Positions 7,401-37,990 of a stretch of 64,000 nt of DNA are shown in pieces. The notes under the pieces are model-generated. The model saw only the letters and a program-made list of their open reading frames with translations, ran no database searches and was not told where the DNA came from. The position numbers were made by a program, and so were the translations under genes. The DNA comes from Thelephora terrestris. Taxonomy: Eukaryota > Basidiomycota > Agaricomycetes > Thelephorales > Thelephoraceae. The stretch is taken from NCBI GenBank assembly GCA_015956445.1, contig WIUZ02000002.1:1860001-1924000 (forward strand). Direction: 5' to 3'. The first letter of the stretch is position 1, and each line of letters opens with the position of its first letter.

Positions 7401-7855
7401 TTGACGCTAGTGTAGGAAAAATTCAGCGGCGAAATGTGGCACAATCATGTGGGGTGGAAGACTCACCCGATGGGAGTGAAGGTATGAGCACCATTTGCAG
7501 TGATATGAGGGAGAGGTCGCGATGCCCAGGATGTTTGCTGTTGTGATGGCGGCAGAACTAGACAGCAGCAATGGGAATCAGAAGATCCTCGCGCGCAGGG
7601 TGGGGAGTTTGGGGGAATGAGGGAGAGTACACACCTTTCTCTCTTTGGTGAGCCCAGCTGTTGGAAGCCATCTGTTGCTTTGCTCCTAATGCAAGTGACG
7701 GGAAGTCGGGCGATGCCAGTTGGCGGACATAGTCGATAGACGATCTTGATGTTGACGCCTTGGGATGGGGGATGTCAGAGAGTGGAGTATGTACCGGTGA
7801 AGTTGCAATCGTGATGGTTGAACGTCAAGGCATGCACAGCGGCTGGATCGAGCGA
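4425..7855. other. Repeat-like intergenic DNA, no gene
   Basis: No convincing coding region. Visible structure: GATAAGATAAG repeats at about 5508-5547; an irregular run of TGGAAT/TGGAAC words at 5550-5755, ending in a TATATATAGAC promoter-like site near 5768; and scattered CACAGCCTCAAG words at 6300-6440. A second region rich in GCATGGA/GCATCGAA words lies at 6820-6870. The TATA site next to a short-repeat block would fit the promoter part of an old LTR, but I found no matching terminal repeat. Confidence 0.4.
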
Positions 7856-15189: not shown

Positions 15190-15771
15190 ATGTCTATCAG
15201 CCGCATCTACCCCTTCTTTGACCTGGACCAGTTCATCGACGACACGCTCCGCCCCTGCGGCGGTCGCAGTGGTCCCCCTGTTTCCTACGAGGAACAACAG
15301 GTCCCCCGTTTGTTGAAGCCAAGGTAAGAAATCACCCGGCACCCAGCCACCACACTTTGCCTTCAGATACTGATGGAGAACCGTTGCAGGATGGACCTAC
15401 ACGAGGACGCGAAAAAAAACCTCGTGACGGCCACGTTCGAGCTTCCCGGGCTGACCAAGGATAAGGTCAACATCGACATGCACACTGGGAACCTCATCAT
15501 CTCCGGGGAGGTCTCCGAGTCTACCGAGAAAAACAAGCATGGGTACGCTGTTCGTGAGAGGAGGACTGGGAGGTTCTCCAGGAGCGTTGGTCTCCCTGAG
15601 GGTACCAAGGTAAGTGCGGTGGCTTGTATTCACACTTCCAACGAGGACTGTGAGCTGATGGGGATCGTATAGCCTCAGGATATCAAGGCCTCGATGGAAA
15701 ACGGGGTCTTGACGGTCACATACCCCAAGGCCACCGCCGGCCAAGAGCCCCAATGCATCACTATTGATTGA
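15190..15771 (+). CDS. Small heat-shock protein, Hsp20/alpha-crystallin family
   Basis: Three exons, 15190-15323, 15390-15609 and 15673-15771, give an unbroken 150-residue protein. Introns have GTAAG donors; the first acceptor is GTTGCAG just before RMDLHED. The alpha-crystallin domain spans about residues 46-140, with FELPGL, SGEV, RRTGRFSRS and the closing segment NGVLTVTYPK. Family role: ATP-independent holdase that keeps unfolding proteins soluble in the cytosol as an oligomer. The N-terminal part, IYPFFDLDQFIDDTL, is the usual variable region. Heat-shock elements and a TATA box stand upstream. A 5'-truncated copy lies at 40651. The gene's 3' flank was later split by two transposons at 16447 and 28990. 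Confidence 0.9.
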
Positions 15772-16446: not shown

Positions 16447-16929
16447 CATCTGGAAAAACTTAGGCAACTAAGCGACAATATTCGATTGTTAATCGGGTGC
16501 TAGCCGCGTTATTCCGAATAGTTCGAATAGCGGTCCCACTATTTGAATAGCGCTACCGTAGCTGGGCTACAGGTCGGTAGTGATGCTATAGTGCCTGAAT
16601 AGCAGGTTATTATGAGCATAATAGACTCTGAATAGCGACTCGTTCGACGTGTCATAGGTTGCAAATAGCACGCTCATTTTTAGATATAGGATGGTTGGCA
16701 AATCAATATATTCGGAGTGGGGGTGAATTATTCATACGGGATTACCACTACGTAGACATACGCGTTTCAAGGGATATGACCAGAGTCAAACCCGCATATT
16801 ATCCGTATCCATTAAGGTGGGTCCGGTCAATGGTCCCGAGGCATCATCCGCCGGCGACCCTTTAGATAACAACTCGTTCCTTTTCGGCTGAATTTCAGTG
16901 GTCTAGACACGAGGTTTGACAGGGGAGAC

Positions 16930-19900
16930 CTACATCGTTCCATTGTAGATATCCGAAAGTAGTCGTGCGAGCTTGCGGCCTCCATTCTTCGATACCCTAA
17001 CTCGCTCAAACAAGTTTAGGTGTCCGGTGTAACGGTCTTTTTGCTTGTCCTCAGAGAATTTCACCCGTGTTCCTTCAGCTATTTCCGTAAGTGCAACTTC
17101 AATCTATCACGACGTCTCAGCCATAGCCCGGACACCCGCAAGGTCAGGATGCTCACCAACGTTGCCGCCAATGCCACCATTGGTTTCGGAATCTCTCGTC
17201 CACATTCTCCGGTCGGTACCTGGCCTTCAAGAGAATTGTCGCATTTGAAGAAATATGCGAGGATAAACAGCATCTCTTGGCGCTGATATGGTGCAGTGCC
17301 GTCAGGTGCACCCTAGTGAACTACAGTTAAGTATGTCAAATCGTAAGATTTGCACGTGAGCTCACGAGCCCCTTCAGCTATCTTTTCTCCATGGGTCATG
17401 GACCATACATCGTGACAATTCTCCATGGGTCATGGGCCATACAACGTTGTACAACGCGTTGTACAACCCATGACCCATGGGTAATGGAATAGTATCCGTT
17501 GCCCATGCCCCATGGGTTGTACAATGGTATCTGTTGCCCATCCCCCATGGGTTGTACAACACTATCCGTTCCCCATGGGTCATGGGTTGTACAATGCTAT
17601 CCTTTCCCCATGGGGCATGGGTTGTACAACGCTATCCAATTCCCATGCCCCATGGGCTGTACAACACTATCCAATTCCCATGCCCCATGGGTTGTACAAC
17701 ACTATCCAATTCCCATGCCCCATGGGTTGTACAACACTATCCGTTCCCCATGGGTCATGGGTTGTACAACGCTATCCATTCTCCATGGGGCATGGGTTGT
17801 ACAACACTATCCAATTCCCATGCCCCATGGGTTGTACAACGCTATCCATCTCCCATGCCCCATGGGTTGTACAACACTATCCTTTCTCCATGGGGCATGG
17901 GTTGTACAACGCTATCCATTTCCCATGCCCCATGGGTTGTACAACGCTATCCATTTCCCATGCCCCATGGGTTGTACAACGCTATCCATTTCCCATGCCC
18001 CATGGGTTGTACAACACTATCCAATTCCCATGCTCCATGGGTTGTACAACGCTATCCTTTCTCCATGGGGCATGGGTTGTACAACACTATCCTTTTCCCA
18101 TGCCCCATGGGTTGTACAATGCTATCCGATTCTCATGCCCCATGGGTTGTACAACACTATCTGATTCCCATGCCTCATGGGTTGTACAACACTATCCAAT
18201 TCCCATGCCCCATGGGTTGTACAACACTATCCGTTCCCCATGGGGCATGGGTTGTACAACGCTATCCATTCTCCATGGGGCATGGGTTGTACAACACTAT
18301 CTGATTCCCATGCCCCATGGGTTGTACAACAACATCTTGTGCCCATGGGGCATCAGTTGCAGAATGGTGTCCTTTCTCCATGTCCCATGGATTATATCAC
18401 TATTCCAGGAAAGGAGATACTTTATAAATCAACCATTAGCTGTGTGAATTTGAAAAAAATAGACTCTGTTTGTATGCATGGTAGACCATATATCAGTTTG
18501 TGGCTCTAACCTAATGGAAACTAAACTTAACCTGATAATAGCCACAACCTAATCCTCAATCTAACCTGAGCCAATGTAAACTTGACCCATGAACCTAAGC
18601 CTAACCTAATCCTAAACCTGGTCTAATCCCAAATCTAACCCTAACCTGACCTGACCTAACCTAACCTAACCTATACCTAAACTAACCTATACCTATACTA
18701 ACCTATACCTAACCTAACCTGGTATGGGCAAACCTAACCTACCTATCATGACCTGTTTCAGCCTAATGTCATGTATGCCAGCCAAGACTAACTTCACCCA
18801 GTTGCAAACATATGACTTGGGTCACAGGACCATAAAGCAAACTGCAGTCCCCTCACTCTGTGCCCAACCATCCCATAAGCCCACAGATGTACATATATAT
18901 CATCAGCAACCCAGCATCATGCTTATCACCCATGTTCAACCACAAACCACTCTCACCCTTTGTTCTGTGCTATCTCAAAGCCTAACCATAACTCTAGCTC
19001 ACCCACCCATATTAATCCTTGTGTGGACTATGTTATAGGTCTATAAACCATATGTTTGTAGGCCACTTGCTTGTGGGCCCAAGGAGGTCCATGAACTTGA
19101 GTTGTGGTTTGTCTGTGAGATGGCACAGAACAAAGGGTGAGAGTGGTTTGTGGTTGAACATGGGTGATAAGCATGATGCTGGGTTGCTGATGATATATAT
19201 GTGCTCTGTGGGCTTATGGGATGGTTGGTCACAGAGTGAGGGGACTGCAGTTTGCTTTATGGTCCTGTGACCCAAGTCATATGTTTGCAACTGGGTGAAG
19301 TTAGTCTTGGCTGGCATACATGACATTAGGCTGAAACAGGTCATGATAGGTAGGTTAGGTTTGCCCATACCAGGTTAGGTTAGGTATAGGTTAGTATAGG
19401 TATAGGTTAGTTTAGGTATAGGTTAGGTTAGGTTAGGTCAGGTCAGGTTAGGGTTAGATTTGGGATTAGACCAGGTTTAGGATTAGGTTAGGCTTAGGTT
19501 CATGGGTCAAGTTTACATTGGCTCAGGTTAGATTGAGGATTAGGTTGTGGCTATTATCAGGTTAAGTTTAGTTTCCATTAGGTTAGAGCCACAAACTGAT
19601 ATATGGTCTACCATGCATACAAACAGAGTCTATTTTTTTCAAATTCACACAGCTAATGGTTGATTTATAAAGTATCTCCTTTCCTGGAATAGTGATATAA
19701 TCCATGGGACATGGAGAAAGGACACCATTCTGCAACTGATGCCCCATGGGCACAAGATGTTGTTGTACAACCCATGGGGCATGGGAATCAGATAGTGTTG
19801 TACAACCCATGCCCCATGGAGAATGGATAGCGTTGTACAACCCATGCCCCATGGGGAACGGATAGTGTTGTACAACCCATGGGGCATGGGAATTGGATAG

Positions 19901-22406
19901 TGTTGTACAACCCATGAGGCATGGGAATCAGATAGTGTTGTACAACCCATGGGGCATGAGAATCGGATAGCATTGTACAACCCATGCCCCATGGGGAATG
20001 GATAGTGTTGTACAACCCATGGGGCATGGGAATTGGATAGTGTTGTACAACCCATGCCCCATGGAGAATGGATAGCGTTGTACAACCCATGACCCATGGG
20101 GAACGGATAGCGTTGTACAACCCATGGGGCATGGGAAATGGATAGCGTTGTACAACCCATGGGGCATGGGAATTTGATAGTGTTGTACAACCCATGCCCC
20201 ATGGAGAATGGATAGCGTTGTACAACCCATGACCCATGGGGAACGGATAGTGTTGTACAACCCATGGGGCATGGGAATTGGATAGTGTTGTACAACCCAT
20301 GGGGCATGGGAATTGGATAGTGTTGTACAACCCATGACCCATGGGAAACAGATAGTGTTGTACAACCCATGCCCCATGGAGAAAGGATAGCGTTGTACAA
20401 CCCATGACCCATGGGGAACGGATAGTGTTGTACAACCCATGGGGCATGGGAATTGGATAGCGTTGTACAACCCATGGGGCATGGGAAATGGATAGCGTTG
20501 TACAACCCATGGGGCATGGGAATTGGATAGCGTTGTACAACCCATGCCCCATGGGGAAAGGATAGCATTGTACAACCCATGGGGCATGGGCAACAGATAC
20601 CATTGTACAACCCATGGGGCATGGGCAACGGATACTATTCCATTACCCATGGGTCATGGGTTGTACAACATGTTGTACAACGTTGCATGGCCCATGACCC
20701 ATGGAGAATTGTCACGATGTATGGTCCATGACCCATGGAGAAAAGATAGCTGAACCCTGTGAGCTCACCGCTTTCGTTGTCCCAAAATGGAAAGCCTCCT
20801 GGTGCAGGAGTTTCTTCGCTATCTCTGCCTTTTCGGCGTCCGCTGAGCCCAATAACTTATAAGATGTTTTCGCCTTCATCTTTGCTTGCGCTTTCTCTGA
20901 AGTTTTTTTCCCGGGTTGTGGGCTACCGACTAAGGCCCTTGCCACATTCAACACTGTTTGACGATAGCCACTCCAACGGTTTCGAATCTAATGAGTAATG
21001 GTCAGTGATGGAAATGTGTGGCGGGTTGAACCGGCAATCACCATAGACGGCAGACAATAGAAATAATCGAGGTCGACTCTTGCACGTTCTCCCACCGCTT
21101 TGATGACGTGGCCGCAAGTCCTTGCAGAAAGCTCAAACTTGAGCGCATCCACCAGCCATCGTTCCTGTTGATCAACATCTGGGAATGAATCAATTAGGAG
21201 TAAGTTGGAATTGGCCCGTTTCACAGCAGCGCTCAAGCAGTTGCTGATTTCGGTGGTTTGGCTGGTCTGTTTGTAGGACCCGTTGTCTTCTTGAATGAGT
21301 TCAGTGAATGCTGGCCAAGCCGGGACAGGCTGTGCAAGACCCATGTTGCCGTGGTTGGGGAAGAGGCTAGTTTGTGGGTGAATAATGGTAATTGCGCCAG
21401 GATTGGTCATATCCATGAGTGAGCCGTCTGGCTGCTGGAACGATGGGCCTGGGGCAGGGACCTATCACGCCGAACCGATCCAAATCGATCAGCGTTGACG
21501 TTCGCTTGAATGCCACAACGGTTCACCTCTCTGATGATACGGTGCGCTCGTCTTCCACCCTACCAACAGGTGAGATCTCACGCATAAGATATGGAAGGTT
21601 AACGAGGACTTACGTGCACAGTTGGCTTGATCAGAGCGGTCTCGTGGTCGTCAAGATTGTTTTCGATACCGCCGTCCCCTCGGTATTTGACATCTTGGCC
21701 TGTGGCGACTCCAGCACCAGTTTGGGGGCGCTGGGTTGACATGGGACTGTGTCACAGGTGTTTCGTCAAATCGGAGAACTCCATACCTCTTCAGCCAGCT
21801 GTATTGCGGTTGGAAACTCGTCTGCCTCATCGTTGCTCAGTAATGGTGATGTGGCACCACCTTTAAGCTGTGAGCCGCGTTACTCTGTATGCCGTAGTGG
21901 TGCTCACGGACCATCAGTAGTGTGGTTGGTCGTATCATCCTCCCCGTCTTCAGAATCTGAGGAAGAAGTGGGTCGGGCTGGTGCCTTTCTTAAACTGGTC
22001 TTCGATTTAGAGGGTATTTCTGCACCTGGGCTCAACAACGCGAAGATGTGCGAAGAAGTACTGGAAACCTACCTTGCTCTGCGGTTCTGGCACTAACTTT
22101 TAGTGTCGGTTCTGTAGCTTCCTTAGTCGCGTTGGCTGCAGAGTGCACGTTCTTCACGCCCAGGGCTTTTTTGGTTGACCGTTTAGTTGGCTGGTCCGTG
22201 CACGGTAAGTCTTCGGCTTTTCGCTTCTGGATCCCTGTATTCATATTAGCGAACGGCCTCCAGCATGCAACCGTATGACTACCAGCTTCTGCAGTGACAG
22301 GCTCTTCCCCTCTGTTCATTGACCTTGTTCCTATACGGCGGGTGGAAGCGGTGGACTTCGTCACACTGGGGGGATGTTGTTTGGAGGACCGTTCTTTTGG
22401 TGGCAT
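16930..22406 (-). CDS. DUF6532-like protein paired with transposase 1
   Basis: Minus-strand multi-exon gene. Supported exons are 21461-21042, 20987-20769, 17312-17157 and 17103-16930; all join in phase, and the small introns are 53-54 nt. The start (22406 or 22430) and short exons between 21.5 and 22.4 kb encode a basic, KR-rich N-terminus with nuclear-targeting character; their exact joints are not settled. The C-terminal half carries the pattern I associate with the agaricomycete DUF6532 family: LLIDSFPD, PYQRQEM, PKPMVALAAT, a GTRVKFS segment and a final helix. Its biochemical role is unknown. It is transcribed away from the transposase. The intron 17313-20768 contains a 3.4-kb foldback inserted at the splice donor. 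The family name is from memory and needs a profile search. Confidence 0.65.
17356..17365. repeat. 10-bp target duplication (right copy)
   Basis: GTGAGCTCAC, identical to 20759-20768. It is itself a palindrome and begins with the splice donor GTGAGC of the host intron on the minus strand. Confidence 0.8.
17366..20758. mobile_element. Giant Mutator-like foldback element
   Basis: 3,393 bp made of two inverted arms of about 1.6 kb (17366-18980 and 19120-20758) around a short unique centre. Termini read GAGCCCCTTCAGCTATC and, in the mirror, AGGGTTCAGCTATC. The 10-bp target duplication and long arms fit the MULE type; no transposase is present. The outer 1 kb of each arm is a 35-bp minisatellite, about 28 units, with the palindromes CCATGG and TTGTACAA in each unit. 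The inner part holds CCTAA-type repeats. Since 35 is not divisible by 3 and the unit has no stop, all three frames of one strand stay open over hundreds of codons; these are not genes. Confidence 0.8.
20759..20768. repeat. 10-bp target duplication (left copy on minus strand)
   Basis: GTGAGCTCAC directly follows the exon ending at 20769 (minus strand), so it supplies a functional-looking splice donor on the exon side of the insertion. Confidence 0.8.
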
Positions 22407-22463
22407 GGGAAAAGGGAAGAGGGTCGGCAATGAACGCGGCTTCTGTTCCCAGTTTTAAGGTGT

Positions 22464-23829
22464 CACTGGGGGCAAGGGTTGGTTTACTGAGTCAGTAAAC
22501 TGTGAGTAAATCACAAGTAAATGGAAAAAGAACCTAGCGAAATACTTGCCTGGCAAGCGCAAAGCAAATTCACAATTTACTGAGCCAATTTACCTGCAAT
22601 TTACTGGGTTCAGTATGCGCTCAGTATGTTTACAGTTTACTGGGTCATGTGACCACAGTTTCCCCATTAGGTAAACCTCGGAAAAATTCACAATTTACTG
22701 AATAAATTTACCTGCAGTTTACTGAGCCACTTGCCCAATCAGTATGTTTTCAATTTGCTGAGTGGTTTGATCACGGTTTACTGGACTCAGTAAACTGGAA
22801 AAAAACCAAACTGGTTTACAGACGACGTCCCTGATTGGTCAATTTGAAAAATAACCGAAAATTTACCTGGACGTGTCATTGTCAGTAAACTGCAAGTTCT
22901 CTTTCAGTAAATTGGAAATACACGTCAGGTAAACTGAGAAAACACGTGATGATTTGATTGTGGTTTACTGGACTCAGTAAATCAGAAAAAAACCTAACCG
23001 GTTTACTGACGATGTACCTGATTGGCTAATTTGAAAAAAACTCGAAAATTTACCAGGACGTGTCTTTATCAGTAAACTGCAAGTTTTCTTTCAGTAAATC
23101 GCAAGTACACGGAAAGCAAACCAGAAAACACGTAAATTTTGAGTTTACTTACAGTATACACGTGTTTCCTGGTTTACTTTACGTGTACTTGCGATTTACT
23201 GAAAGAAAACTTGCAGTTTACTGATAAAGACACGTCCTGGTAAATTTTCGAGTTTTTTTCAAATTAGCCAATCAGGTACATCGTCAGTAAACCGGTTAGG
23301 TTTTTTTCTGATTTACTGAGTCCAGTAAACCACAATCAAATCATCACGTGTTTTCTCAGTTTACCTGACGTGTATTTCCAATTTACTGAAAGAAAACTTG
23401 CAGTTTACTGACAATGACACGTCCAGGTAAATTTTCGGTTATTTTTCAAATTGACCAATCAGGGACGTCGTCTGTAAACCAGTTTGGTTTTTTTCCAGTT
23501 TACTGAGTCCAGTAAACCGTGATCAAACCACTCAGCAAATTGAAAACATACTGATTGGGCAAGTGGCTCAGTAAACTGCAGGTAAATTTATTCAGTAAAT
23601 TGTGAATTTTTCCGAGGTTTACCTAATGGGGAAACTGTGGTCACATGACCCAGTAAACTGTAAACATACTGAGCGCATACTGAACCCAGTAAATTGCAGG
23701 TAAATTGGCTCAGTAAATTGTGAATTTGCTTTGCGCTTGCCAGACAAGTATTTCACTAGGTTCTTTTTCCATTTACTTGCAATTTACTCACAGTTTACTG
23801 ACTCAGTAAACCAACCCCTGCCCCCAGTG
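22464..23829. mobile_element. CACTG foldback element 1
   Basis: 1,366 bp with two near-perfect inverted arms of about 680 bp meeting near 23147. Termini are CACTGGGGGCAAGGG and CCCTGCCCCCAGTG, with a 3-bp duplication TGT at 22461-22463 and 23830-23832. The arms are packed with TTTACTG/CAGTAAA words. No coding. CACTG termini with a 3-bp duplication fit the CMC (EnSpm/CACTA) superfamily. It lies between the DUF6532-like gene and the transposase gene, within about 60 and 105 bp of their likely starts. Confidence 0.85.
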
Positions 23830-23934
23830 TGTTTCCACGGACCAGGGACGGAAAGAATCAGGTACAAAAAATATTCTAGAATTATTCACTCCGCCAATGT
23901 TGACTCATTTTTCCATCACCTTTTCCTCCCCAGC

Positions 23935-26900
23935 ATGCATCAGCCAGCAAGACATCTATGCCCCGGGTGTGGGCGATCCTTCCTCCCGGGTGGCTACACA
24001 AACCACCTTAAGCTCACCCATGACCCCCGCTGCCAATCCGTTCGGAATGCTGTTTTTCGACAGGCCTCTCATGCACCCTCTCAATTTTTGGACGATTTAC
24101 CAACCCCCGAACCCTTGGTTTCCCCCTCCCCTGTTATACCTGGACCTCCCCATGGCCCTGAAAACTTTGACTCGGATGTGGAGATGTCAGAAATTGAAAA
24201 TCTGGACCAGGACCACACTATAACAGATCGCAACATTACCCTGCCGCCACCCAGTATTGGAGCTGTCGGTCACGGTGTCGATGATCAAGACATTCTCGAT
24301 GAGACATTTGGTGTACTTCACTGCCACCAGTCATCCACCGCCCCCCTCATCATTGGCTCGGATGCAGACTCAGACACAGACTCCGATTCTGGCTCAGACG
24401 CAGACTCCGATTCCGGCTCAGACACAGACTCCAATTTGTCTGATGCCGGTGGTCGTGGAAGCAACCAATCAAATTCCCAGGAGCCAACAACATCGCCCAG
24501 TGAGTTATTCTAGCCTCAAGCAATCTACAACTTATGCTGATTGGCATTGCCAGCCAACCCAGAGTCTCCGCCCAGTGGTTCAGAGAGGAGATATTTCATT
24601 GTGAAATTTGGCGGGAGAGCAGGGGAAGCAGTTAGGAAAAATGACCAGCACGTGCCATATGTGCAGTATTCCCAAGGTTCTCAGGCAGAGAACATGCCAA
24701 CAGAATGGGCGCCGTTCTTGACGCGCATGGATTGGGAGGTTGCTCGTTGGGCAAAATTACGAGGCCCGAGCTCAACAGCTTTAACAGAGCTTCTAGGGAT
24801 TGACGGGGTATACTAACATTCTATATTGACCACTTCTGCCTTGTTCTAATGTCAACTCATTGTTTAGCTGGCAAACAAACTCGGTCTATCGTTCTCGAAC
24901 ACCGACGAGCTCAATCGGATCATTGATGGGAAGCTCCCGAATGGACTTCCAAAGTTTGTTCGAGAGGAGCTTACGCTTGCCGGCCAGACCTATGAATTTT
25001 ACCATCGTGATATAATTCAATGCGTTCATTCCCTCTATGGAGACCCTGAGCTTGCAAAATTTCTCACGCACGCACCGGAGAAGCTTTTTACTGGCCCGGA
25101 TAAGAAGACAAGAATTTACTCCGAGATGAACACGGGAAAATGGTGGTGGACACGCCAAGTAAGATCTCATGTGTTTGCGGTCAACACGTGCCTAAACTAA
25201 TATGATGTGATATAGATCGAACTTGAGGATGAGTTTGGTGGAGTGACAGTCATCCCACTTCTCATCTCCTCTGACAAAACTCGGGTGGTGATGTTCGGTA
25301 CAAAGTCAGCGTACCCGGTGTACCTTACAATCGGGAACATCCCAAAGGAGCTCCGTCGGAAACCATCACGGCGAACACATATCCTCCTTGGCTACCTACC
25401 GACGACCCCTCTACACCATATTTCAAGCACTACCTCTCGTCGCCGAATGGTTGCAAACCTCTTCCACTATTGTATGTCCCGGATCCTTGCACCGCTGGAA
25501 CGCCTAGTTGAAACTGGGCCGATCGAGATGTCGAGTGGTGATGGGATCATACGCCGAACGTTCCCTATCTTTGCGTGCTTTGTTGGAGATTACCCGGAGC
25601 AAGTTCTTGCTTCTGGGTACAAAACTGGGGACTGTCCTCGCTGTCCTGCTAGGCGGCCGGAGCTGGGAGAGTTGAAAGATGATTATGAATACCGAGACCT
25701 CGCTCAAATTTTGGAAGTGTTGTCAACCTTCGAAGACGATCCCGCTGGCTACGGTGCTGCCTGTTCGAAAGCCGGCATAAAACCCATCGTTCATCCCTTT
25801 TGGCAAAACCTCCCCTACTCCGATATCTACCTCGGAATTACCCCTGACATTCTCCACCAACTCTATCAAGGGGTTATGAAACACCTACTTTCCTGGGTTT
25901 CAACGGCATTCGGAGAGAAAGAACTCGACGCCCGTTGCCGATGCCTCCCCCCCAATCACAACATCCGATTGTTCTCCAAGGGAATCACATCCTTATCACG
26001 GGTAACTGGAAAAGAACATGCCGATATGTGTCGCATTCTTCTCGGGCTTGTCGTGGACTTGAAACTCCCCAATGCTACCTCCCCACTTCCCCTTATTGCC
26101 GCCATCCGCTCGCTTCTTGACTTCCTCTACCTCGCACAATACCCCCTCCATACCTCCGAAACACTTCGACTTTTGCATGAATCACTCGAACGGTTTCATG
26201 CGAACAAATACGTCTTCGTCGATCTTGATATCCGGAATGATTTTAACCTCCCGAAGCTGCACTCTCTCGTTCACTATGTTGATTCCATCAAACTCTTCGG
26301 GACAACTGACAACTATAACACAGAGTACACGGAACGCCTCCACATCGACCTGGCAAAGGACGCTTACCGGGCAACGAATCACAGGGATGAATATGCGCAG
26401 ATGACAGTCTGGTTGGAGCGAAAAGAAAAGATTCTTCAGCACGAAAGCTATCTCAAGTGGCGTCTTAACCCTCGATCAACAATCCTCCTCCGATCGACTG
26501 ACATGGCGTACAATGGGGCCCTTACACTGACGAAGTGGCCATCGGCCTGGGCAGTCAAGTTGGGCAACATCGTCGACCAATACGGTGCAAAGTTTTTTCA
26601 AGAAGCCCTCCGCCGTTACATTGTCCTTGCACGACACTCCGGCCCGCCGCTCACAAGGATCCAAGTTGAACGTCAGATCCTGTATACAAACCTCCCCTTT
26701 ACAACGGTGTCCGTATATTATAAACTCAAGTTTACCACCCCGGGTGACACAACTGTGGCCAAACGCATCACTTTGGATTCAATTCACGCCCGGCCTGAAC
26801 GGCGGACAAAAAAGGGGAAAGTAATACCTGCCCGCTTCGACACTGTCCTCTTGAATGTCGGTTCGGGTGAGGAAACGTGTATACAAGGTACGCTCCACAA

Positions 26901-27268
26901 ATTCTTGATGTCTATACTCCCCTCAACGCACATTTAAAGGATACCGCGTAGGTCAGGTTCGAGTGATTTTCACTCTGCCGGCTGGTGTGGATGGAGTTTC
27001 GGCAAAGCCACTCGCATATATCAAATGGTTCACCAAGTTCACAATACCTGACGCAAATCACCGAATGTTCAGGCTGAACCGAAGCTTAGAAGCTGGCGAG
27101 CGGGTAGCGAGCATCGTCCCCATGTCAATGATTCGGCGAAGTGCCCATCTGTTCCCAAAGTTTGGTCCAGTAGTGCCGGAGGGGTGGACCTCGAATAATG
27201 TACTCGAGAAGTGTTCCACCTTTTATCTCAACCCATTTACAGACAAGCATATGTATTTTATTCTCTAG
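23935..27268 (+). CDS. Plavaka-class transposase 1, intact
   Basis: Five exons, 23935-24499, 24554-24807, 24868-25158, 25216-26887 and 26940-27268, join in phase into 1,036 residues without a stop. A C2H2-type finger CPGC..H..TH lies at residues 9-30, followed by an acidic DSDSD-rich linker. The core then runs with MDWEVARWAKLRGPSSTALTEL, MNTGKWWWTRQ and VIPLLISSDKTRV, and closes with LFPKFGPVVPEGWTS and FYLNPFTDKH. These are standing signatures of fungal Plavaka transposases, related to the KDZ/CMC group. I did not assign catalytic acids. It probably cuts the CATC..GATG ends of element 1. An upstream 5' exon disrupted by the foldback cannot be excluded. Confidence 0.85.
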
Positions 27269-27299
27269 TATACATAAAGCAGAGATTTATGATCCTCAT

Positions 27300-28687
27300 C
27301 ATCATCAGCCGTTGACCATCTCGTGCGATACCGTGGAAATTCCAAGCCCCGCACACAAGCGGCCACTGAGCCTCGTCTTCTAGGGAAACCAGTGTCGTTC
27401 CTCTCCGACATTGCGTCAAAGCGCTCATCCGCTGTTCACGTACCTCTGGGACTGTTCTCCAGACTGGCCTTTGTTGTACAACTGATTGAGGAAGCGTCCA
27501 AATTACGACAGTTCCGACGAACAAGCTCGTATAACCGCCACTCCAGTCACTGGGGGCAAGGGGTCAAATACCTGATGGGTACATGCTGAACACATTGTGA
27601 TCACAGTCAACAAGTGATCGCAATGTGCCCAGTGGGGGAAATTTGAATACATTCAAAATGTGCCTGGCCATGTGAGTCCAATGTGCCCAGTAGGCACATT
27701 TTGATTGTGATCACAATGTACCCATCAATGTGATCTCAATGTGCCCACTGGGGACATTTTGATTGCAATCACAATGTACACATCAATGTGAACTCAATGT
27801 GCCTGCTGTGCACATTTTAATTTCTTTCACAATGTTCCCATCAATGTGTTCTCAATGTACTTAGCTCATTACATAATAGTTTCTTTCACAATGTTGTCCA
27901 CAATGTGTCCAGCATGTGGCTGAGCCACTCATTCAAACTTCTTTCACAAAGTATCCAGTGATGTGTCTAGAATGTGTACAGCCATACACATAGTGATTTC
28001 TTTGAAAGTCCATGGTGAAATCGAACAATATTGTGATTACATTGTGATTACTTCAAAAAGAACCCCCTGGGGACATCATGGACACATCACTGGGTAATCT
28101 TTGGAAGAATTTTGAATGAGTGGCTCAGCCACATGCTGGACACATTGTGGACAACATTGTGAAAGAAACTATAATGTAATGAGCTGAGTACATTGAGAAC
28201 ACATTGATGGGAACATTGTGAAAGAAATTAAAATGTGCACAGCAGGCACATTGAGTTCACATTGATGTGTACATTGTGATTGCAATCAAAATGTCCCCAG
28301 TGGGCACATTGAGATCACATTGATGGGTACATTGTGATCACAATCAAAATGTGCCTACTGGGCACATTGGACTCACATGGCCAGGCACATTTTGAATGTA
28401 TTCAAATTTCCCCCACTGGGCACATTATGATCACTTGTTGACTGTGATCACAATGTGTTCAGCATGTACCCACCAGGTATTTGACCCCTTGCCCCCAGTG
28501 AGTAGGTCAAGGTCTCCACTGTTTGGAAAATAAGCGCAAACCTGACGATGAAGAAGCGGACAGAAGAAAATGTCGGCGCAAGGAGAAGAATGACACACCT
28601 CATCGAACCAAATTCATGGTGGCTCGTGAGGCCCAGGTCCAAATACTGAAGGAAACTGAGTCTATTCGTCGTCGTAGGAAGTTGTGA
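27300..28687 (+). other. Possible third coding segment of element 1, split by a foldback
   Basis: Before the foldback an open stretch (27323-27547) encodes a helical peptide with LFSRLAFVVQLIEEASKL and SSYNRHSS. After it, 28532-28687 is open for 51 residues of highly basic sequence (KRKPDDEEADRRKCRRK, ending SIRRRRKL and stop). The two are in different frames, and no good intron joins them. The basic stretch looks like a nuclear-localisation or DNA-binding tail. No counterpart is visible in element 2. Uncertain. Confidence 0.3.
27548..28500. mobile_element. CACTG foldback element 2
   Basis: 953 bp, inverted arms of about 470 bp, termini CACTGGGGGCAAGGGGTC and mirror, 3-bp duplication AGT at 27545-27547 and 28501-28503. 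The arms are dense in CAATGTG/CACATTG words. No coding. It shares only the outer 15-18 bp with foldback 1, so the two are different subfamilies served by one terminal signature. Confidence 0.85.
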
Positions 28688-28952
28688 GCACCAACATATG
28701 GCACTCACGAAATGAAGGGGAAAGTTTCGTCAACGGTGGAGAGATTCACCCGCCGTCGACAGAACCGCTCGTTCCTCCCTACTTCTTTGCCTGTGCCGAA
28801 CCAATTGCACAGTGGCGGTCACTCAAGCGCTCGCCGAGGACGGTGGTCAGTGATAAACAAGCGCTGACATAGTGATGACTTATGAGGCTTACGCCGTTTA
28901 GGGCTACATAGCATCATTTTATCTTGCTTAGTCGCTTAAGCTTTTCCAGATG

Positions 28953-28989
28953 GTTCCGTTGAGAGGAATGCACAGAGTCCCTGTGGTCG
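28953..28989. repeat. Host sliver between two transposons
   Basis: About 37 bp (GTTCCGTTGAGAGG..CCTGTGGTCG) left between elements 1 and 2. It aligns to 41778-41812 of the empty-site paralogue, with GACCCTGTGGTCGC conserved except for one base. Confidence 0.75.
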
Positions 28990-29030
28990 CATCAGTAAAC
29001 GTGACACGGAGACCTTTTTCACGTTATTCC

Positions 29031-29079
29031 GTGCTTATACGGCATATAAGCACAAATAACCTGGTTATATAAACCAGGT
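29031..29079. other. Two adjacent hairpins near the left end of element 2
   Basis: GTGCTTATA..TATAAGCAC (29031-29053) and ACCTGGTT..AACCAGGT (29059-29079) are perfect stems of 9 and 8 bp with 5-base loops, 40-90 bp inside the transposon end. They could be transposase-binding or transcript 3'-end signals. Confidence 0.45.
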
Positions 29080-29308
29080 CACGATTTTATATAAATTTCA
29101 CTCACCATTTTGTCGCGCGGTTTACGGGCCGAAAATAAGTTTGATTAAAGTCCAAAATAAGACGGAAATAATTTAAAAAATAACTAGTCCAAGAAACCGG
29201 GCCATTGTGATTGTGATTCGAGCAGTCAAGAGGCAGCAGTCAGAAAACTGGTTTGTAAATACATGAAACTAGTGACGAGGGTGTCTAGTTCAACACAAAT
29301 GTCGACAG

Positions 29309-31085
29309 CTAGTTGGAGGGTGAGGATGGGGGATCAGCGGGCAGAAACGGTGCAGATTCATCAACTGAAATCCCGGCGTCGACTTGGGCTTCATGTGTGC
29401 GGGTCCTTTCATACCGGCGGAGCGCGTCGAATACTCCCTTCCAGTTGTCATCAGTGAAATGCTTCTTGATCTTGTTGGTGTAGGTGGTTGTTGATTTGAG
29501 GCAGTTCGTGGTGGAGAAGTCTTTCAAGGTTGATATGTAGTCGCCGCTTTTGTGCGCCCTATACCCGCGCTCAACCTGAAATAAAAATCAGTAAAAAACA
29601 TAATATGAAGCGAGTTTGACTTACTGCTGCCGCAGCGAGTGCAAGTGCACCAATCGGGCGATCAGTGTCATCGGGTGGCTGGCGGATACCATATGACTTG
29701 TAGTATGCTGAGAAAGTGCGGATGACAGGAATTGCTTGAAACAGGCCTCGGCGTTTCTAGGACACAAAATTTAAGCAGGAATCACAAGGAACGATGAGGG
29801 TAAGTCATACCTCATCATAATACTTTTCTCCACTGGGGGAGGGAACCTCGATGGTTCCAGGGCGGAAATACTCCCAGACGATAGGATGTTGCTCTGATTC
29901 GAGAAGAGTGTTGATGTAAGCTGCCCTTTGTGCCTTGGAGTCTAGCAAACATTTGGAGTATTGAGTGGGGAGGAACTCGATGACTGCCGTGAGCCCTTCA
30001 ACGCCGATTTGATTACGAAATTTACCGATGTCACGGCTGGTTGGTGCGACAACTGCATCACCCGGGGATAGGTGACACTGGAGTTGCGGGTAGACTTGAT
30101 TGAATTCGTGCTGGTAGATCGGGAGACTAGGGTTCAACCACGGGGATACATCAGAGCAGACCATCTTGATCATGTGACGGATGAAGACATCGCGAAAGTT
30201 TGTCTGCATGCCGAAGGGCAGGTGCTTCACTCCCGGGCTGCGAATTTTCTCGTTCTTATCCTTATACTTCCCTTTGAATGAGTGAACCTGATGTTGATTG
30301 CCGAGATGAAATGGTGAAGGAGCGACAGTGTTTTGTATGGATGCGACGGGATTGAAGAGATCAAGGTTGTCGACGTCTGGCATGATCAGGGGGGACGGGT
30401 AAGGCTGTCGAGAGGAAGAGGACGCCAACGACGATGGGGTATAGAGCATCTGGGTCATTGAGGATGGTGTGGGAGACATCATCGGTGACAAAGGGGAAGC
30501 CTGTCGACGAGCAGCCGGAATCGTCTTCCGTAAGACCTGAGGCCAGTTGTTGATGAGGCCGGATGGTTTGTTGCAAATCGTTGGGCGGACCTCACTGAAT
30601 GAGTGATATTCCTTGGTGCGCTTCAAGGCCCTGTATAAAGAAAAAGAATCAGAACCAACCACAGTTGTGGTTGTCGGGCGTGACACACCGTGGGTCGAGG
30701 CTGCTCGAGGGGATTCGTTTCCCACCCAAAACTATGTAGTCATCAGATTCCGCGTCGGTCGGGGCCTCAGGCTCGGCTGCAATGAGCATATCAACGTCGT
30801 CATCGGGAGGACTACTGTCCCTCATGAACTTGAGGCGTGATCAGATGTTGGAATTAGTCAAAACGAAAGGTGAAGTGGACGTACAAGGGGTTCCTTTGAA
30901 AGGGCGGCGGTCTCGTCCGGATGTTCGAAGGCGGCCAGACGTGCTTGAAGTTCCCGGATCTGATCGTTCTTGGTGGGTGCTTTGGTCCGCTTCTTGGTTG
31001 GAATACCGGCCTTGATTTTTGCGGCCTCGGTCATGACAGGCGCCGCTGGGCGAGCGTCCTTGTTCCTTGCACGGGTTGACACCAT
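29309..31085 (-). CDS. DUF6532-like protein paired with transposase 2
   Basis: Minus-strand multi-exon gene. Exon 1 (31085 to about 30885) encodes a basic leader MVSTRARNK with KKRTK and a short coiled coil (NDQIRELQARLAAF), then an acidic exon starting FMRDSSPPDDD. The main exon (within 29805-30620) has the helical core: IRHMIKMVC, then EGLTAVIEFLP and EQHPIVWEYF. The following exons have RPIGALALAAAA and the C-terminal helix ending at 29309. The RPIGALALA segment aligns in position and character with PKPMVALAA of the gene in element 1, which makes the two homologous. Role unknown. Internal exon joints between 30.6 and 30.9 kb are approximate. Confidence 0.6.
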
Positions 31086-31732
31086 AGTGAGCAAGAGAGA
31101 CTAGAAGAAAAGAGCGACGAGGTGGTGAGAGAAATGAATGGATAGAAGGGGGAGAAGGTGAGGATGGGAGAGACGACAGAACGTACAGGTTCGCTTTTAT
31201 AGCATGAGAGGAATTCAAATTTGAAGGGAGATGTACGGGTGCAGAATAGTTGGGGCTCTTGAGGCAACTCCGTCCGTTTGTCAGAGAAGGGGAGTGTGAT
31301 AAGAACGAGTGCACAGAATGGCAGTTTCGGAAGGGTCGGAAGGGTCTTGTTGCTTCTCCTGGAATCCGAGTGGTCAGAATCATTGTGGGCGGTCTCGGTG
31401 ATGGTAACGAGGACTTACTGAGAGGCGAGGGTGACGTTTCCCGTTCCAATCGACCACCCGGTTGGCATCGGCACCTCCAAGATTGAAGCGGCTAGCGCTG
31501 CGAAGCTTGGACCCGCGGGCATTGCGGAACTTGATCCAGCGAACGTCTTGAGAATTGAAGGAGCGGGCATCACGAAAATCGATATGGCTGGCGCTGGAGA
31601 AACTGACGCCATCGACGCTGGGGGAGTGAACATAGGGAAGATTGGTGGACTTGATGCTGAAAAAATTGGCATCGTCGACGCCAGCGACATCGATGAGGTG
31701 GGCTGGCACGCCAGGTTGCTGGGACCTATTCA

Positions 31733-32233
31733 CACTGGGGGCAGGGGCACCTGGAATCGGTGATTACATCTTGATTACATGGTGAATTCATGTGCACTTT
31801 TCAATAATTGTAATCGTTGATTCCAGGTTGATTACATTTCAAATGTTACCTTGACATGTAATCCAACTGTTGCCACCAACTCCATTTGAAATTTCCTCAA
31901 GATGTTCCCAAGCAATGTTTCCTGAATGTGCCCAGTGGGTACATTGTGAAAACGTCTCATGTTTTTGAGTGCATTTAGATTACATCTCAGACGATTGAAG
32001 AACATGCTGATTACATTGCAGTATCATTTTTGCCGACAGGTCAAAAGCATCCCAGAAACATTTGATGAGAACATTTCAAATGGAATTGGTGGACATTGGT
32101 TGGATTACATGTCAAGGTCACATTTGAAATGTAATCAACCTGGAATCGGTGATTACAATTATTGGAAAGTGCACATGAACTCACCATGTAATCAAGATGT
32201 AATCACCGATTCCAGGTGCCCCTGCCCCCAGTG
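31733..32233. mobile_element. CACTG foldback element 3
   Basis: 501 bp, inverted arms of about 250 bp, termini CACTGGGGGCAGGGGCACC and mirror, 3-bp duplication TCA at 31730-31732 and 32234-32236. The arms are rich in GATTACA words. No coding. Like foldback 1, it lies between the divergent starts of a DUF6532-like gene and a transposase. Confidence 0.85.
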
Positions 32234-32575
32234 TCACTGCTGAAATGTCTTGTGTGTAGAGCAGCAGCCGCGTTGTTGGCCAGGACGTGGGAAGAAGAGA
32301 GACGAGGGAATCGGAAGTGTCAGCGGTGGGAGGTGAGGAGTGAGAAGGCAGGGCGAGAAGAGTGGGTGGGACTTGACTTCGTAAAATCGCCGTGCCCATC
32401 ACATCACCATGTGTTGGGAAGCAGGCTTGTGACCTGTCACAAGTTCCTTAAGTTCCTGTCCCTCGCGCCCTCGGTTCCTCACGCCAGCAACGCTCCGCTG
32501 CCACTTCGACACTCTTGTCTCATTCCTCCTTCGACTCCCCTTCGTTACCGCAAGCCACCCAGTGATTCGCCCTTC

Positions 32576-35500
32576 ATGGGTCCGCTGTTCTTCGCCTGCA
32601 GCAGATGTGGGAAGATTTGCAAGTCCGTTGGTGGACTTACTCAACATTCCTCGGTCCACCGCCAACCCGCCCAGCCCGCCCATCCCATCCAAAATTTGCG
32701 TCGCGAGTACCACCCGCTACTCAGCGGTAACTCCTTCCTCCCCATTCCTTCATCATCAATCTGATGAGAATTTACAGGAACGCCTTGCGATCACCTCGGA
32801 AATTTTCTCCCACCCAACTCACCACCAGCACCACCACCCCAAAAGGCCAACGACAACTGGACCCCGTTCAAATCGCGGGCTGGATTCGAGCTCGCTGAAG
32901 TTCTGTACCTCAAAGCCAACCTCTCTCAGAGCATCATCAACCATATCCTCGACCTTTGGACTGCCACGCTCATCCCACATGGCGACCTCCCCCCTCTCAT
33001 CGATCATCAGGACCTCCTCACGCAGATCGATGCAATCAAATTAGGCAACGTCCCATGGAAGTCTTACACCGCCCAGTACCAATGGCTCCGCCCCGACGCT
33101 GGTCCAATACCGGAGTGGATGAAGACCGAATATCAATTCTGGTACCGTGACCCCAGGAAGGTCATCCACCACCTCCTCTCGAACCCCGAGTTTGCCTCGG
33201 GTATTGACTACGCGCCTCACCGTGACTTCAAAGACGAGGAACGGCAGTATCGTGATTTTATGAGCGGGAACTGGGCATGGGATCAGTGTGTACGTAGACG
33301 TTTACTACGAGCTCGTCGTTATTAACCCCACCCCCCCCCCCCCCCCCGGATTACAGGACACTATTGCAATGGATGCTAGGACGCACAGCGCGATGTTCGT
33401 TCCGATCATCCTTGGGACCGACAAGACGACCGTCTCAGTCGCAACCGGCCAGCATTCATATCACCCCATTTACCTTTCGGTCGGCAACGTGCACAACCGC
33501 CTTCGACGAGCACATAAGGACACGCTCGTCTTAATCGGCTTCCTTCCTATACCTAAAGGTACTCCTTCCTTTCTCGTTACCATGCGCAATCTAATGCATC
33601 GCCCCATAGGTACTCGGGAAGATGCAAAGGACGAGCTCTTCCGCGATTTCCGCCGCCGTCTCTTCCACGGATGTCTGACAGCTGTCAATTCTACCGTCAA
33701 ACCTTTCATGTTGACGTGGGATCTTGTCCGATGCTCCGATCATCACTTCCACCGGGTGATCTATGGCCTTGGCCCCGAAATCACAGATTATCCCGAGCAG
33801 TCGGTTGCCGCAGGGACCGTTTATGGCTGGTGTGTCACGTCTGTATAATCTCTGTCCCATGCAACACTCACGCACTAACTGGTTCCTCTTCAGGTGTGAA
33901 GCCGACCCTCAAAACCTTGATGATCCAACAGCCGAACTGCGGACTCAGGAAAAAATGTTCGCACTTCTCGAGGCAGAGGACGATGACACACTGTGGTTCC
34001 ATCATGGAATGGTATCCGATTTTCTGGTGCATTGTTCACCTTCACTCACTCCAGAACACGTGCTGACCTTTGATCCCAGCCATTCACGGCCAGCTTTCCC
34101 CGCGCAGATATCTACGAACTTCTCAGCCCAGACCTCCTTCATCAAGTCATCAAGGGAACATTCAAGGATCATCTCGTCACGTGGGTTGAGGAGTATCTCA
34201 AGATTGTGCACGGTCCCTCGGAGGGGTCACGGCTCCTCGATGAGATCGATCACAGGTCCACAATTTCAATTAACAATCAATGTTCCGATCATTCCTCACC
34301 TTTCTCCTAGGATTTCCCTGGTCCCCCTGTTCCCTGGCCTGCGAAGATTCAAACAGGGGCGAAATTTTCAGCAGTGGACTGGAAACGATTCCAAGGCGTT
34401 CATGAAGGTGGGCGCTTTCGTTCTCAGCAGGGCTTATGTACTAAGCCAAACAGGTCTTCACCACCACGCTGGAAGGCATCGTTTCGGTTGATATCATCAA
34501 GACCCTTGCCGCATTCCTGGATTTCTGTTATATCGTGCGCCAGGACACCATTGCCGAGGTCTCATTGACCGCCCTCGACAACGCTCTCGGTAGGTTCCAC
34601 CACCACCGTGAAATCTTTCGAGAGTCCGGCGTACGCCCAACTGGATTCTCACTCCCTCGGCAGCATTCCCTCAGTCATTATCATCACCATATCAAGAAGT
34701 TCGGGGCGCCAAACGGGCTTTCCTCATCAATCACTGAGTCCAAACACATCATTGCCGTCAAGAAACCATGGCGCCGGTCCAGTCGGTATGAAGCGCTTGG
34801 TCAGATGCTCACGATCAACACCAGAAACAACAAGCTCGCCGCCGCACGGACTGACTTCTCGTCACACGGCATGCTGGACGGCACTTGCCTCGGTGAGGTG
34901 ATTGACAGGCTTCGCGAAGCCCTCGAGGATGCCGAAAACAACGATAGCGATACAGATTCCGACTCAAATTCTGAGAGTGAGGACGGCCAGGATCTCGATG
35001 CCGATGAGGACGAGGATGCCGTGACAGGTCCAGTTGACGGACCACCCCCGTTGAGCGATATCACCCTCGCGCTGAAGTGCGGTGAGTATCCCTCACCATC
35101 TTACACGTCTTATCGTCGCTTACACTGTCAACACAGCACGCGGCTATCCTCTCGGGTCAATCTGGGAGCTCGGCAAGCATATCAAACAAGAAAACCTCGA
35201 AGCACTCGTCCAGATTTTCCTCTTCTACCACCAGAATCCCAACTCCGCTGGGGCCCCTTCTGTCTCTGCCTGCCCGTCTATCGACTCCATCGAAGACATC
35301 TCCATCTTCCATTCGGCCAAGGCGGTGTTCTGTGCTCCGAGCAACTCTCCCGGCGTTGGAGGTCTCTACCGCGAAATGATCCGGTCCACCCCGAAGTGGA
35401 AAACAAGCGGCATCATAGCACCACGTCGCGATTGTGTCCTCCTCCACACTGGTTCGGATATGCCAGGAGCCAGGGGTTTTGAAGTTGCAAGAGTTCATCT

Positions 35501-35810
35501 GTTCTTTTCGTTCGCACTCGAGGAGGAGGTCTTTGAATGTGCGCTTGTCCACGAATTCTGCAAGAGCTTTGATGATCCGGACCCCAACAATTGCATGTGG
35601 GTCTTCGAGCCGGACTACGATAGGGACGGGTTCAGATTAATGTCAGTGATTCACATTGATTCCATTGTTCGCGCCGCCCATCTTTTGCCTGTATTCAAAG
35701 ACGACACTCCCATCCCGAGGGAGATTAACTTCACCCACACACTCGACGCGTTCAAGGCTTTCTACCTCAACAAATATATCGATTACCATTCCTTCGAAAC
35801 TTTGTTTTAG
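32576..35810 (+). CDS. Plavaka-class transposase 2
   Basis: Multi-exon, apparently open throughout. Exons 32576-32726, 32778-33289 and from 33357 are clear; further small introns lie at about 33.56, 33.83, 34.01, 34.25, 34.4 and 35.08 kb. It starts with a C2H2 finger (FACSRCGKICKSVGGLTQH). Then come the family signatures NWTPFKSRAGFELAE, DFMSGNWAWDQ, DTIAMDARTHSAMFVPI, GTDKTTVSVATG, FPGLRRFKQGRNFQQWTG, GFSLPRQHSL and SITESKHIIAVKKPWRRSS. The C-terminus matches the family pattern (VRAAHLLPVF, AFYLNKYIDYH). It belongs to a different clade from transposase 1. One intron carries a run of 17 C bases (33331-33347). Probably catalyses movement of element 2. Confidence 0.8.
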
Positions 35811-35994
35811 TCTCCCGGTCACTGTAACCACGATGTTGAGCACGAATATTATTTCTTACTTCTGATCGATCTTATTTCCTCTTTATTTTCTCGTGCAAAA
35901 CACGCACGAATTGTGAAAAAGTAAGTTCAAAATAATCAAAATAATCTCGGATAATCAAATAAGTTGAAATAATTGAGCGACTACTTGACTGATG

Positions 35995-36270
35995 CGCTAA
36001 GGTTGTGCCCAAACGATCCACGGGGTGAGCAAGTTCCGTGAATGTGAAGCGCGACCTCGACGATTCGTAGCGAACATCCTTACCACTTGGGATATGGTAT
36101 CTCATTCCCTTGAGACCACCACCCCCGACGCATCCCACCGGACCCAGTTGTTCCACTGCTCCATTCTACAACTCACCTCGAGCAGGTCGCTACGTACTCA
36201 ATGAATCCATGACTTCCCTCACCTGGTTTATATCTTGCCATCCAGGTGAATGCCTCCTGGGGGCAGCAAC
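35995..36270. repeat. Duplicated segment, right part (filled site)
   Basis: Continues the paralogy to 41813-42070 after the two transposons: GCCCAAACGATCCACGG..CGATTCGTAGCGAAC and CTTGGGATATGGTATCTC are shared. No gene. Confidence 0.8.
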
Positions 36271-36799
36271 TCCAATTCTTATTGGTCCAGTAGTAGGGTA
36301 ATCTTCTCAGGTTTCACAAAGTAAGGTGTTTTGCCGGCTTCTATCATCGCTGTGCTGGTAGTATGAAACCCAGAATTCGCTCTACATATCAAAATGGTCC
36401 TCGGATCCTGCTCCATTGTGCGCATATATATATCACCGGCGGCTCTGCCGTAGTACAGCATCATTTACCAGGCCGCGGCCGGAACGAACGGGTTTTTAAT
36501 CGACTTAATGTAGCCCACAGATCAACACGTGTTCACAGAATGATTCCCGTGTCCAACTGTACAAAGCGTGATGGTGGATTCCATAGATCTTGATTACTTC
36601 AAGCTGGCGGTCAAGCCGCTCCCTCGTGTGTAACGTCCTCCTTGGCCGGAGCGCCAATGGCCGTAATTGTATTATTGAACACTACTAATACACAGAACCA
36701 AAATTGAATCGTACCACACACACCCGCTGATTCGTTCGTTTGGACCCGTCACCCCGAGTCGGAAGGAGAGGCAAACGCGCAGGGTATAGGGATAGATTA
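36271..36799. other. No gene recognised
   Basis: Intergenic DNA downstream of the MGMT gene. Only open frames of about 60-75 codons without domains. Confidence 0.5.
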
Positions 36800-37550
36800 T
36801 CAAGGCTGCCACATGGCCAAGCTGGGAGCAATCAGACGACCCTGATCATCGAACCTGACCCCTTCGAGTCTCAGCATCCGCAGTTTCCAGTCACAATCGG
36901 ACACCATCGAACGATTCTTCGAACCCGTCTTGGGTTTCTCTCCACAGAACCCTCCAATCGTTCGATCGGAGGCGATGACTCTGTGGCATGGAATGAACGG
37001 AGCGAAAGGGTTATTCGCGAGAGCGGTGCCGACTGAATGAAACCGGTACCGCGTGAGGGGCTCGAGCACACTGCGGCTCGTTCAGATGCGAGTGGAGAGG
37101 GGCATAAGTACCTGAACGTGGCGAGCCCTCGCGGAGAGTGACGCAAATCACTTTGTACGTCGTGACCTTCCCAACCGGAAGCTGCTGAATCAAATCGTAG
37201 ACTCTCCAATGGTGCTGTGGCACTTTCTGTAAACGCGTTCGCTGATCAGAAACAAAAACTGTACCCTTGGGCGATTGAGTACGGACTTTCCCATCCTTCG
37301 TGCGGTACGATTCTCTCTGAATTTCGCCTTTTGGATAGAAAACCTTTACTCCCATCTGGTTGGATGTGAAATTAGAAGCAGGCTTTCGAGACTTCGCCCT
37401 CTGCGAAGCGTTGAACACCCTCACCGTGAAATCCTTGACGCTCTTCGCTCCCATTTCGTCCTCCGAAGCCTCTTCAGGAGGCAGTGCGTCCAGGATAGGT
37501 TTGAGGCCCTTCAATGCGGGTGCAAGAGGTTTCCTAGTCGTGCCAGACAT
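36800..37550 (-). CDS. O6-methylguanine-DNA methyltransferase (MGMT)
   Basis: Two exons, 37550-37112 and 37032-36800, with a 79-nt intron (GTACTT..TTCAG) that joins in frame; 223 residues. The motif IPCHRV near residue 162 holds the acceptor cysteine. VYDLIQQLPVGKVTTY matches the helix-turn-helix entry of the family, NNPFAPF the asparagine hinge, and MLRLEGVRFDDQGRL the C-terminus. Reaction: one-step transfer of alkyl groups from O6-alkylguanine in DNA to the cysteine, in the nucleus. The family core is about 100 residues from the VYDLI region onward. The preceding 115 residues, basic and unlike bacterial Ada/Ogt N-domains, are an extension of unclear role. Confidence 0.85.
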
Positions 37551-37990
37551 TGTGAGAGTCGTTTAGTCAGGGAAGACGGAGTGGGCGAGACGCGTAGCCG
37601 CCCGTTGACTCATTAACGATCGGTCGATCACGTGCCCAAGAAAACGCGTCCCGAAGCTGAACAGTGAGTCTTCGAACCGACAAAGACATTCATCCAACAT
37701 TGGAGGCTTGTAAAACGTGAATCTTGATACATGAAAAACATTAGGAATCGTACATCGTCAGCTAGTAGAGTAGTAAGGGCATATATGTCCGCCCCTCTAA
37801 AACAGGGCAGTCCCCTCCAAATTTAAGGTGGGGAGCAACCCACTAACATCACCATGAAAAAACAATTCTAAGGGTCGGTTAAACGTACAAACATGAGCAC
37901 ATCCTAAAACTGTCGTTCGAGATCCCAGCCTTCAACGACGAACGGTCAGAAGGAGAAAGTCTCAATAAATCCCAAGGCGGGTAGACCATT
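37551..37990. other. Intergenic between MGMT and ABC relic
   Basis: Promoter side of the MGMT gene and 3' side of the ABC transporter relic. No further signal is recognised. Confidence 0.45.

Follow-up and report, generated by a model that had tools for sequence, protein, structure and literature searches.

The window analyzed here is a stretch of 64,000 nucleotides (C12:1860001-1924000) from the 40.6-Mb genome of Thelephora terrestris, an ectomycorrhizal mushroom. It contains two Plavaka DNA transposons, referred to as A (16447-28952) and B (28990-35994), which were delimited by comparison with other copies, by their inverted ends and by the 2-bp duplication of the target; Plavaka reportedly originates with Iyer and others (2014). 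Each element carries a Plavaka transposase gene on the plus strand and a second gene on the minus strand, head to head and within the element ends. The features of the two elements, in window coordinates, are as follows.

16447-28952, no strand: element A, Plavaka transposon, from the C8-copy alignment, inverted ends and target duplication GT; 12506 bp, about 6.8 kb without inserts
16447-16473, plus strand: left inverted repeat of A, 24 of 27 bases matching
16786-22406, minus strand: DUF6532 gene of A, split by 17366-20758 and by further breaks; PF20149 match, annotated homologue P0008
17366-20758, no strand: palindromic insertion within the DUF6532 gene of A, 10-bp duplication GTGAGCTCAC
22407-23934, no strand: spacer of A between facing start codons (chosen by eye), 159 bp with the nested insert removed
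22464-23829, no strand: foldback insertion in A, exact CACTGGGGGCA ends, target duplication TGT
23935-27268, plus strand: Plavaka transposase gene of A, from PF18759 exons, start codon by eye
27548-28500, no strand: foldback insertion in A, exact CACTGGGGGCA ends, target duplication AGT
28926-28952, minus strand: right inverted repeat of A, pairing with the left end
28990-35994, no strand: element B, Plavaka transposon, from the boundaries of four other copies, inverted ends and target duplication CG; 7005 bp, about 6.5 kb without insert
28990-28999, plus strand: left inverted repeat of B, 9 of 10 bases matching
29309-31085, minus strand: second gene of B, probably DUF6532-like from sequence comparisons; five exons spliced by hand, stop-free in that reading
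31086-32575, no strand: spacer of B between facing start codons (chosen by eye), 986 bp with the nested insert removed
31733-32233, no strand: foldback insertion in B, dispersed across the genome, exact CACTGGGGGCA ends, target duplication TCA
32576-35810, plus strand: Plavaka transposase gene of B, from PF18759, start codon by eye
35985-35994, minus strand: right inverted repeat of B, pairing with the left end

Element A was delimited by its C8 copy (L012), since the alignment of this copy to window positions 16447-17365, 20759-22463, 23829-27544 and 28502-28952 spans those limits. The inverted ends of A start with CATCTGGAAAA, and the target duplication is GT in the window and AA in the C8 copy. 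Element B was placed at 28990-35994 because other copies start and stop there: in a DNA search with 28501-36300 as query, they start at query positions 489-491 (window 28989-28991) and stop at 7494-7495 (window 35994-35995). Its inverted ends are short, CATCAGT(A/C)AA, and are flanked by the duplication CG; a 2-bp duplication match by itself has a chance of 1 in 16. The outer limits drawn in the initial annotation, 16447 and 35994, coincide with the left end of A and the right end of B. The gap between the two elements is just 37 bp (28953-28989), and open reading frames beside them, at 15328-15672 and 37011-37562, look by eye like a small heat-shock protein and an Atl1/MGMT-like protein.

Palindromes were also considered as terminal repeats and ruled out: the four palindromic and foldback sequences listed above are insertions with their own target duplications and are missing from the copies compared. 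The one at 17366-20758, which interrupts the second gene of A in the window copy, is large and palindromic and consists of 35-bp tandem repeats, with AGGTTAGG-like repeats nearer its center. The foldback at 31733-32233 has at least 32 further genomic matches at 92-97% identity among the 40 candidates scored out of 286. Other Plavaka loci contain two of these matches: the one at C12:2491603-2492109 separates a DUF-type gene from its transposase, and the one at C45:2170067-2170568 has transposase matches on either side.

Both transposases carry the Plavaka domain PF18759 above its curated cut-off of 26.3 bits, with 78.2 and 268.5 bits in the A exons at 24868-25200 and 25216-26937, and 96.1 and 161.8 bits in B at 32768-33325 and 33264-33848. 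Their N termini are weakly zinc-finger-like, under the Pfam cut-off. A weak match to DUF6830 (PF20722, 18 bits, cut-off 24.3) was observed in the C-terminal part of the A transposase (25216-26937). The tail of A 3' of the transposase (27293-28684) contains short open reading frames, broken up by the insertion at 27548-28500, and none of them had a match that would point to a third gene there. The PF18759 matches, the strands and the mapped ends bear out the description from which this study started, namely a transposase and a second gene head to head between the terminal repeats of both transposons.

The second protein of A, read with X at the breaks, matches the DUF6532 profile PF20149 with 69.1 bits (E 6.2e-19), and its annotated 557-aa homologue P0008 matches with 78.7 bits; the curated cut-off is 24 bits. 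Profile matches to the A gene are spread over window positions 16789-22454. The A protein is a member of DUF6532, a family for which the Pfam entry gives no function and whose cut-off the A protein and its annotated relatives exceed by far. The B protein of the window (519 aa) showed no PF20149 match in a search with a maximum E of 10, where filters drop most rows above 0.1. Among its homologues, P0001 (52% identity) matches profile positions 56-193 with 20.3 bits (E 5.7e-4), under the cut-off, and P0003 gave no PF20149 match. Three protein searches returned 7, 11 and 10 proteins, the named ones all from T. terrestris.

The relatedness was also assessed by profile comparison. First, small alignments of B against DUF6532 gave hhalign E values of 0.23 and 0.028, which are not significant. 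A larger B-type profile (15 loci) compared with 12 DUF6532 rows scored 26.5 with E 0.015 and an hhalign probability of only 3%. None of 200 column-shuffled decoys scored as high (largest 22.9), the reversed profile scored 15.9, and transposase controls scored 15.9 and 18.3. In the profile comparison, the support for B came from this larger set and its decoys. Given the sub-threshold P0001 match and the decoy-tested score, but also the low hhalign probability, we regard the B protein as a probable remote relative of DUF6532 and do not file it as a member. The initial label "DUF6532-like" for both proteins was therefore right for A and is probable for B; of the two profiles proposed for the search, the Plavaka one was found in both elements and PF20149 in A.

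Among the second proteins, no Pfam DNA-binding domain was recognized in A, B or the annotated homologues, and structure models had mean pLDDT values of 34.3 and 35.0, which makes them unusable. Searching PDB sequences with the A alignment returned no rows; the B alignment returned two weak ones (E 0.1 and 0.23), LysM receptor kinases matched in a low-complexity part. Basic clusters are present in seven of eight DUF-type proteins, in one of the three exons read of the A transposase and in none of five pieces of the B transposase. These clusters are a weak hint that the second protein may act in the nucleus.

The pairing seen in A and B recurs across the genome. We merged PF20149 hits with B- and A-protein hits into 52 DUF-type loci (all 20 PF20149 rows; 115 B-protein and 36 A-protein rows joined into 32 and 12 stretches), a number that may count one insertion-split gene twice (C7:888733 and C7:903563). 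Plavaka hits gave at least 70 loci, a lower bound from scoring 123 of 261 candidates, using 71 of 132 rows with exon rows of single loci joined by eye. Within 12 kb and among the Plavaka loci scored, 43 of the 52 DUF-type loci have a divergent Plavaka transposase, one has a tandem one, none a convergent one, and eight have none. For the 19 PF20149 loci alone, the same search gave 15 divergent partners and four loci with none. Since 3.9% of the genome lies within 12 kb of a scored Plavaka locus, about two of 52 would be expected by chance. Two of the eight unpaired loci (C23:1931863 and C12:3407896) retain remnants of a transposase whose strand and side are those expected. Viewed from the 70 scored transposase loci, the nearest DUF-type gene within 20 kb is divergent in 44, tandem in two, convergent in one and absent in 23; the convergent case is window A, whose own partner is the next nearest.

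Many loci are recent copies and not independent, so the argument rests on the uniform orientation and on controls with other transposable elements. No DUF-type locus lies within 20 kb of any of 59 KDZ transposase loci (joined from 125 rows), and LTR integrase hits (142 of 144 rows used) come within 12 kb of five of the 52, with two convergent, one divergent and two tandem. The expectation in the initial annotation that a genuine pair should be enriched in other copies is thus upheld in this one genome by 43 of 52 divergent pairs against none of 52 in the KDZ control.

The best-scoring 20 of the at least 70 transposase loci, excluding window A, were examined more closely. With a DUF6532 profile, to which several of these loci had themselves contributed rows, 13 of the 20 showed the second gene with an E value under 0.01, each time upstream of the transposase and on the opposite strand; two further loci, L020 and L021, had weak matches (E 0.002). 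On two control stretches of the window, which add up to 43 kb, the profile gave no match. L030 has a DUF-type partner 11 kb away. No second gene was detected at the E level used in L016, L018, L022 and L029, where L016 sits at a contig end and L022 had a match at E 0.059 that was excluded from the count.

These 20 loci were also scanned for inverted ends of the CATC or TGT type that are accompanied by a 2-bp duplication. Five of them (L014, L015, L024, L025 and L026) have CATC ends around both genes, with 15-20 of 20 bases matching and a 2-bp duplication. The C8 copy reaches 14 of 20 and is backed by its alignment, and L013 also reaches 14 of 20. One base shuffle per locus gave matches in four of 20, the best at 14, so that values of 13-14 alone are no evidence. 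The scan found nothing above 13 in L011, L017, L019, L021, L029 and L030, although one L021 end coincides with a copy boundary, and no match in L016, L018, L020, L022, L023 and L028. TGT ends in L027 matched at 20 of 20 and were discounted, as they sit in a palindromic repeat. End sequences differ between families, which shows that more than one Plavaka family carries the gene pair. Second genes lying outside the terminal repeats had been named beforehand as evidence against the pairing, and in A, B and these five loci they lie inside. No general subterminal repeat was found in eight elements; counts in A and B were slightly above those of shuffled ends, AT-rich in B.

Distances between transposases and between second proteins are closely correlated in ten type-A loci (r 0.982, a value reached by one of 20000 permutations). 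With the loci reduced to four lineages, the correlation is 0.994, the best of 24 permutations. The two gene trees differ solely in how L011, L017 and L026 branch, a point at which the transposase tree has a support of 0.27, so the proposed congruence check came out in favor of joint inheritance. The second gene is under purifying selection: dN/dS is 0.13-0.31 in eight of ten type-A pairs giving a value (0.26 for window A against the C8 copy) and 0.11-0.19 in seven of nine type-B pairs, the other two having 0.32 and 0.47 with dS near 0.04 or less. For the transposase, seven of ten pairs give 0.04-0.11; of the other three, one gives 0.72 (dS 0.013), another, nearly identical, gives zero, and the third is saturated. 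Between diverged pairs, the second protein is about 2.3 to 4 times as different as the transposase. As judged from these substitution rates, purifying selection keeps the second protein, which argues that it does something for the transposon. The initial annotation spoke of independent retention in different lineages; retention stands, but independence is too strong a word, since type-A proteins and transposases share ancestry, which points to one old pairing kept through diversification.

Location inside the ends, genome-wide divergent pairing, congruent distances and trees, and purifying selection together indicate that the DUF6532-type gene is almost certainly an integral transposon gene. 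With the lack of KDZ or LTR pairing, the same evidence sustains the earlier view that this is a gene of the transposon rather than a neighboring host gene. The second protein is encoded within the element and conserved, as in known two-protein systems. What it does can be proposed with less confidence; by analogy, we give about an even chance to a nuclear accessory factor acting with the transposase. The transposase and the DUF6532-type protein are encoded head to head in one pair of ends (CATC...GATG, 2-bp duplication) and have been co-inherited during diversification. The second protein would then work inside the nucleus, either together with the transposase or on the DNA of its own family's elements, and might help to bring the transposase to the ends or set its dose. 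The pair inside the ends, the 43 of 52 divergent loci, the distance correlation, the low dN/dS, the basic clusters and the Harbinger and En/Spm precedents count for an accessory role. The lack of a Pfam DNA-binding domain, the transposases' own weak zinc-finger-like N terminus and the lack of a general subterminal repeat count against it, as do the four of 20 transposase loci without a second gene (one cut by a contig end) and the broken gene of A.

Another possibility, which we consider rather unlikely, is an anti-silencing factor that shields its own family from being silenced by the host, in the manner of VANC in VANDAL, and is not needed for cut-and-paste. An element-encoded, constrained protein that diverges faster than its transposase would fit this role, and such a role has been proposed for TET/JBP on some PlavakaB elements elsewhere (PMC12730594). 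However, fast change fits a DNA-end-binding protein as well, and the searches made gave no link of DUF6532 to chromatin or methylation. The TET/JBP profile PF12851 had no match in this genome, nor did the same search give any in control genomes. Self-regulation, in which the second protein would repress or adjust transcription starting in the shared spacer and thereby hold down the amount of transposase, appears improbable: start codons face each other across a short spacer in A, but the spacer is 986 bp in B, copies with large spacer inserts persist, and no binding site is known.

It is very improbable that the second gene is a captured host gene or passenger without a transposon role, as its lack of a known function and its broken state in window A might suggest, because it is under purifying selection across families, with dN/dS well below 1 in most pairs, and shows congruent distances and uniform orientation. 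Chance neighborhood of repeated genes is hardly credible, for although transposons cluster and eight of 52 DUF-type loci have no scored Plavaka locus within 12 kb, it is contradicted by the one-sided orientation (43 divergent, one tandem, none convergent), the KDZ and LTR controls and the transposase remnants at two of those eight.

Returning to the accessory factor, a broader reading can be offered tentatively: DUF6532 as a whole may be a family of transposon proteins that serves Plavaka as its obligate second factor throughout mushroom-forming fungi, having joined it before the Plavaka families seen here split and co-evolved with the transposase since. If so, DUF6532 counts in fungal genomes would largely be transposon copy counts. 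A Pfam domain without known function gains a home in this genome, with 43 of 52 DUF6532-type loci beside Plavaka in one orientation, evidence that comes from one species, T. terrestris. DUF6532 expansions in mushroom genomes should accordingly not be taken as host adaptation.

No description of the Plavaka/DUF6532 pairing was found in the open-licence literature searched. Within that literature the pairing appears new, while two-gene DNA transposons as such are already known. The single paper in it that names DUF6532 lists this domain with PF18759 for two Ganoderma species and draws no link between them in the text consulted (PMC8955403). PlavakaB was described with termini CATCA..TGATG and a 2- or 3-bp target duplication, and Plavaka was placed near EnSpm (Kojima 2025, PMC12730594). 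A and B share with PlavakaB the PF18759 transposase and 2-bp duplications (GT, AA and CG); the termini of B are CATCA..TGATG, and those of A, CATCT..AGATG, differ in the fifth base. The extra gene that was reported for Plavaka, on some PlavakaB elements, is TET/JBP, whereas a DUF6532-type partner is absent from the main text searched (PMC12730594).

VANDAL elements with VANC likewise encode a second protein in a DNA transposon (PMC10398659, PMC5735166). They belong to another superfamily, and anti-silencing, shown for VANC, is only a candidate role for DUF6532. PIF/Harbinger needs ORF1 and the transposase, where ORF1 binds the ends and places the transposase in the nucleus (PMC2836001). PIF/Harbinger and the elements described here both have two separate, conserved genes per element, but ORF1 is a Myb-like protein with a demonstrated requirement, whereas DUF6532 has no Myb match and its role would follow by analogy; judged by their Pfam names, the transposases belong to unrelated families. 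En/Spm (CACTA), which depends on both TnpA and TnpD, resembles A and B in combining a transposase with a fast-changing second protein (PMC2613891). TnpA, however, is produced from a single transcription unit through alternative splicing, and its targets are subterminal repeats (PMC2613891), whereas A and B encode the second protein in a gene of its own, divergent from the transposase, and the search for a general subterminal repeat was negative. The gene pair described here would thus add a candidate two-protein system to EnSpm-related elements, as a concrete two-component transposon testable in yeast.
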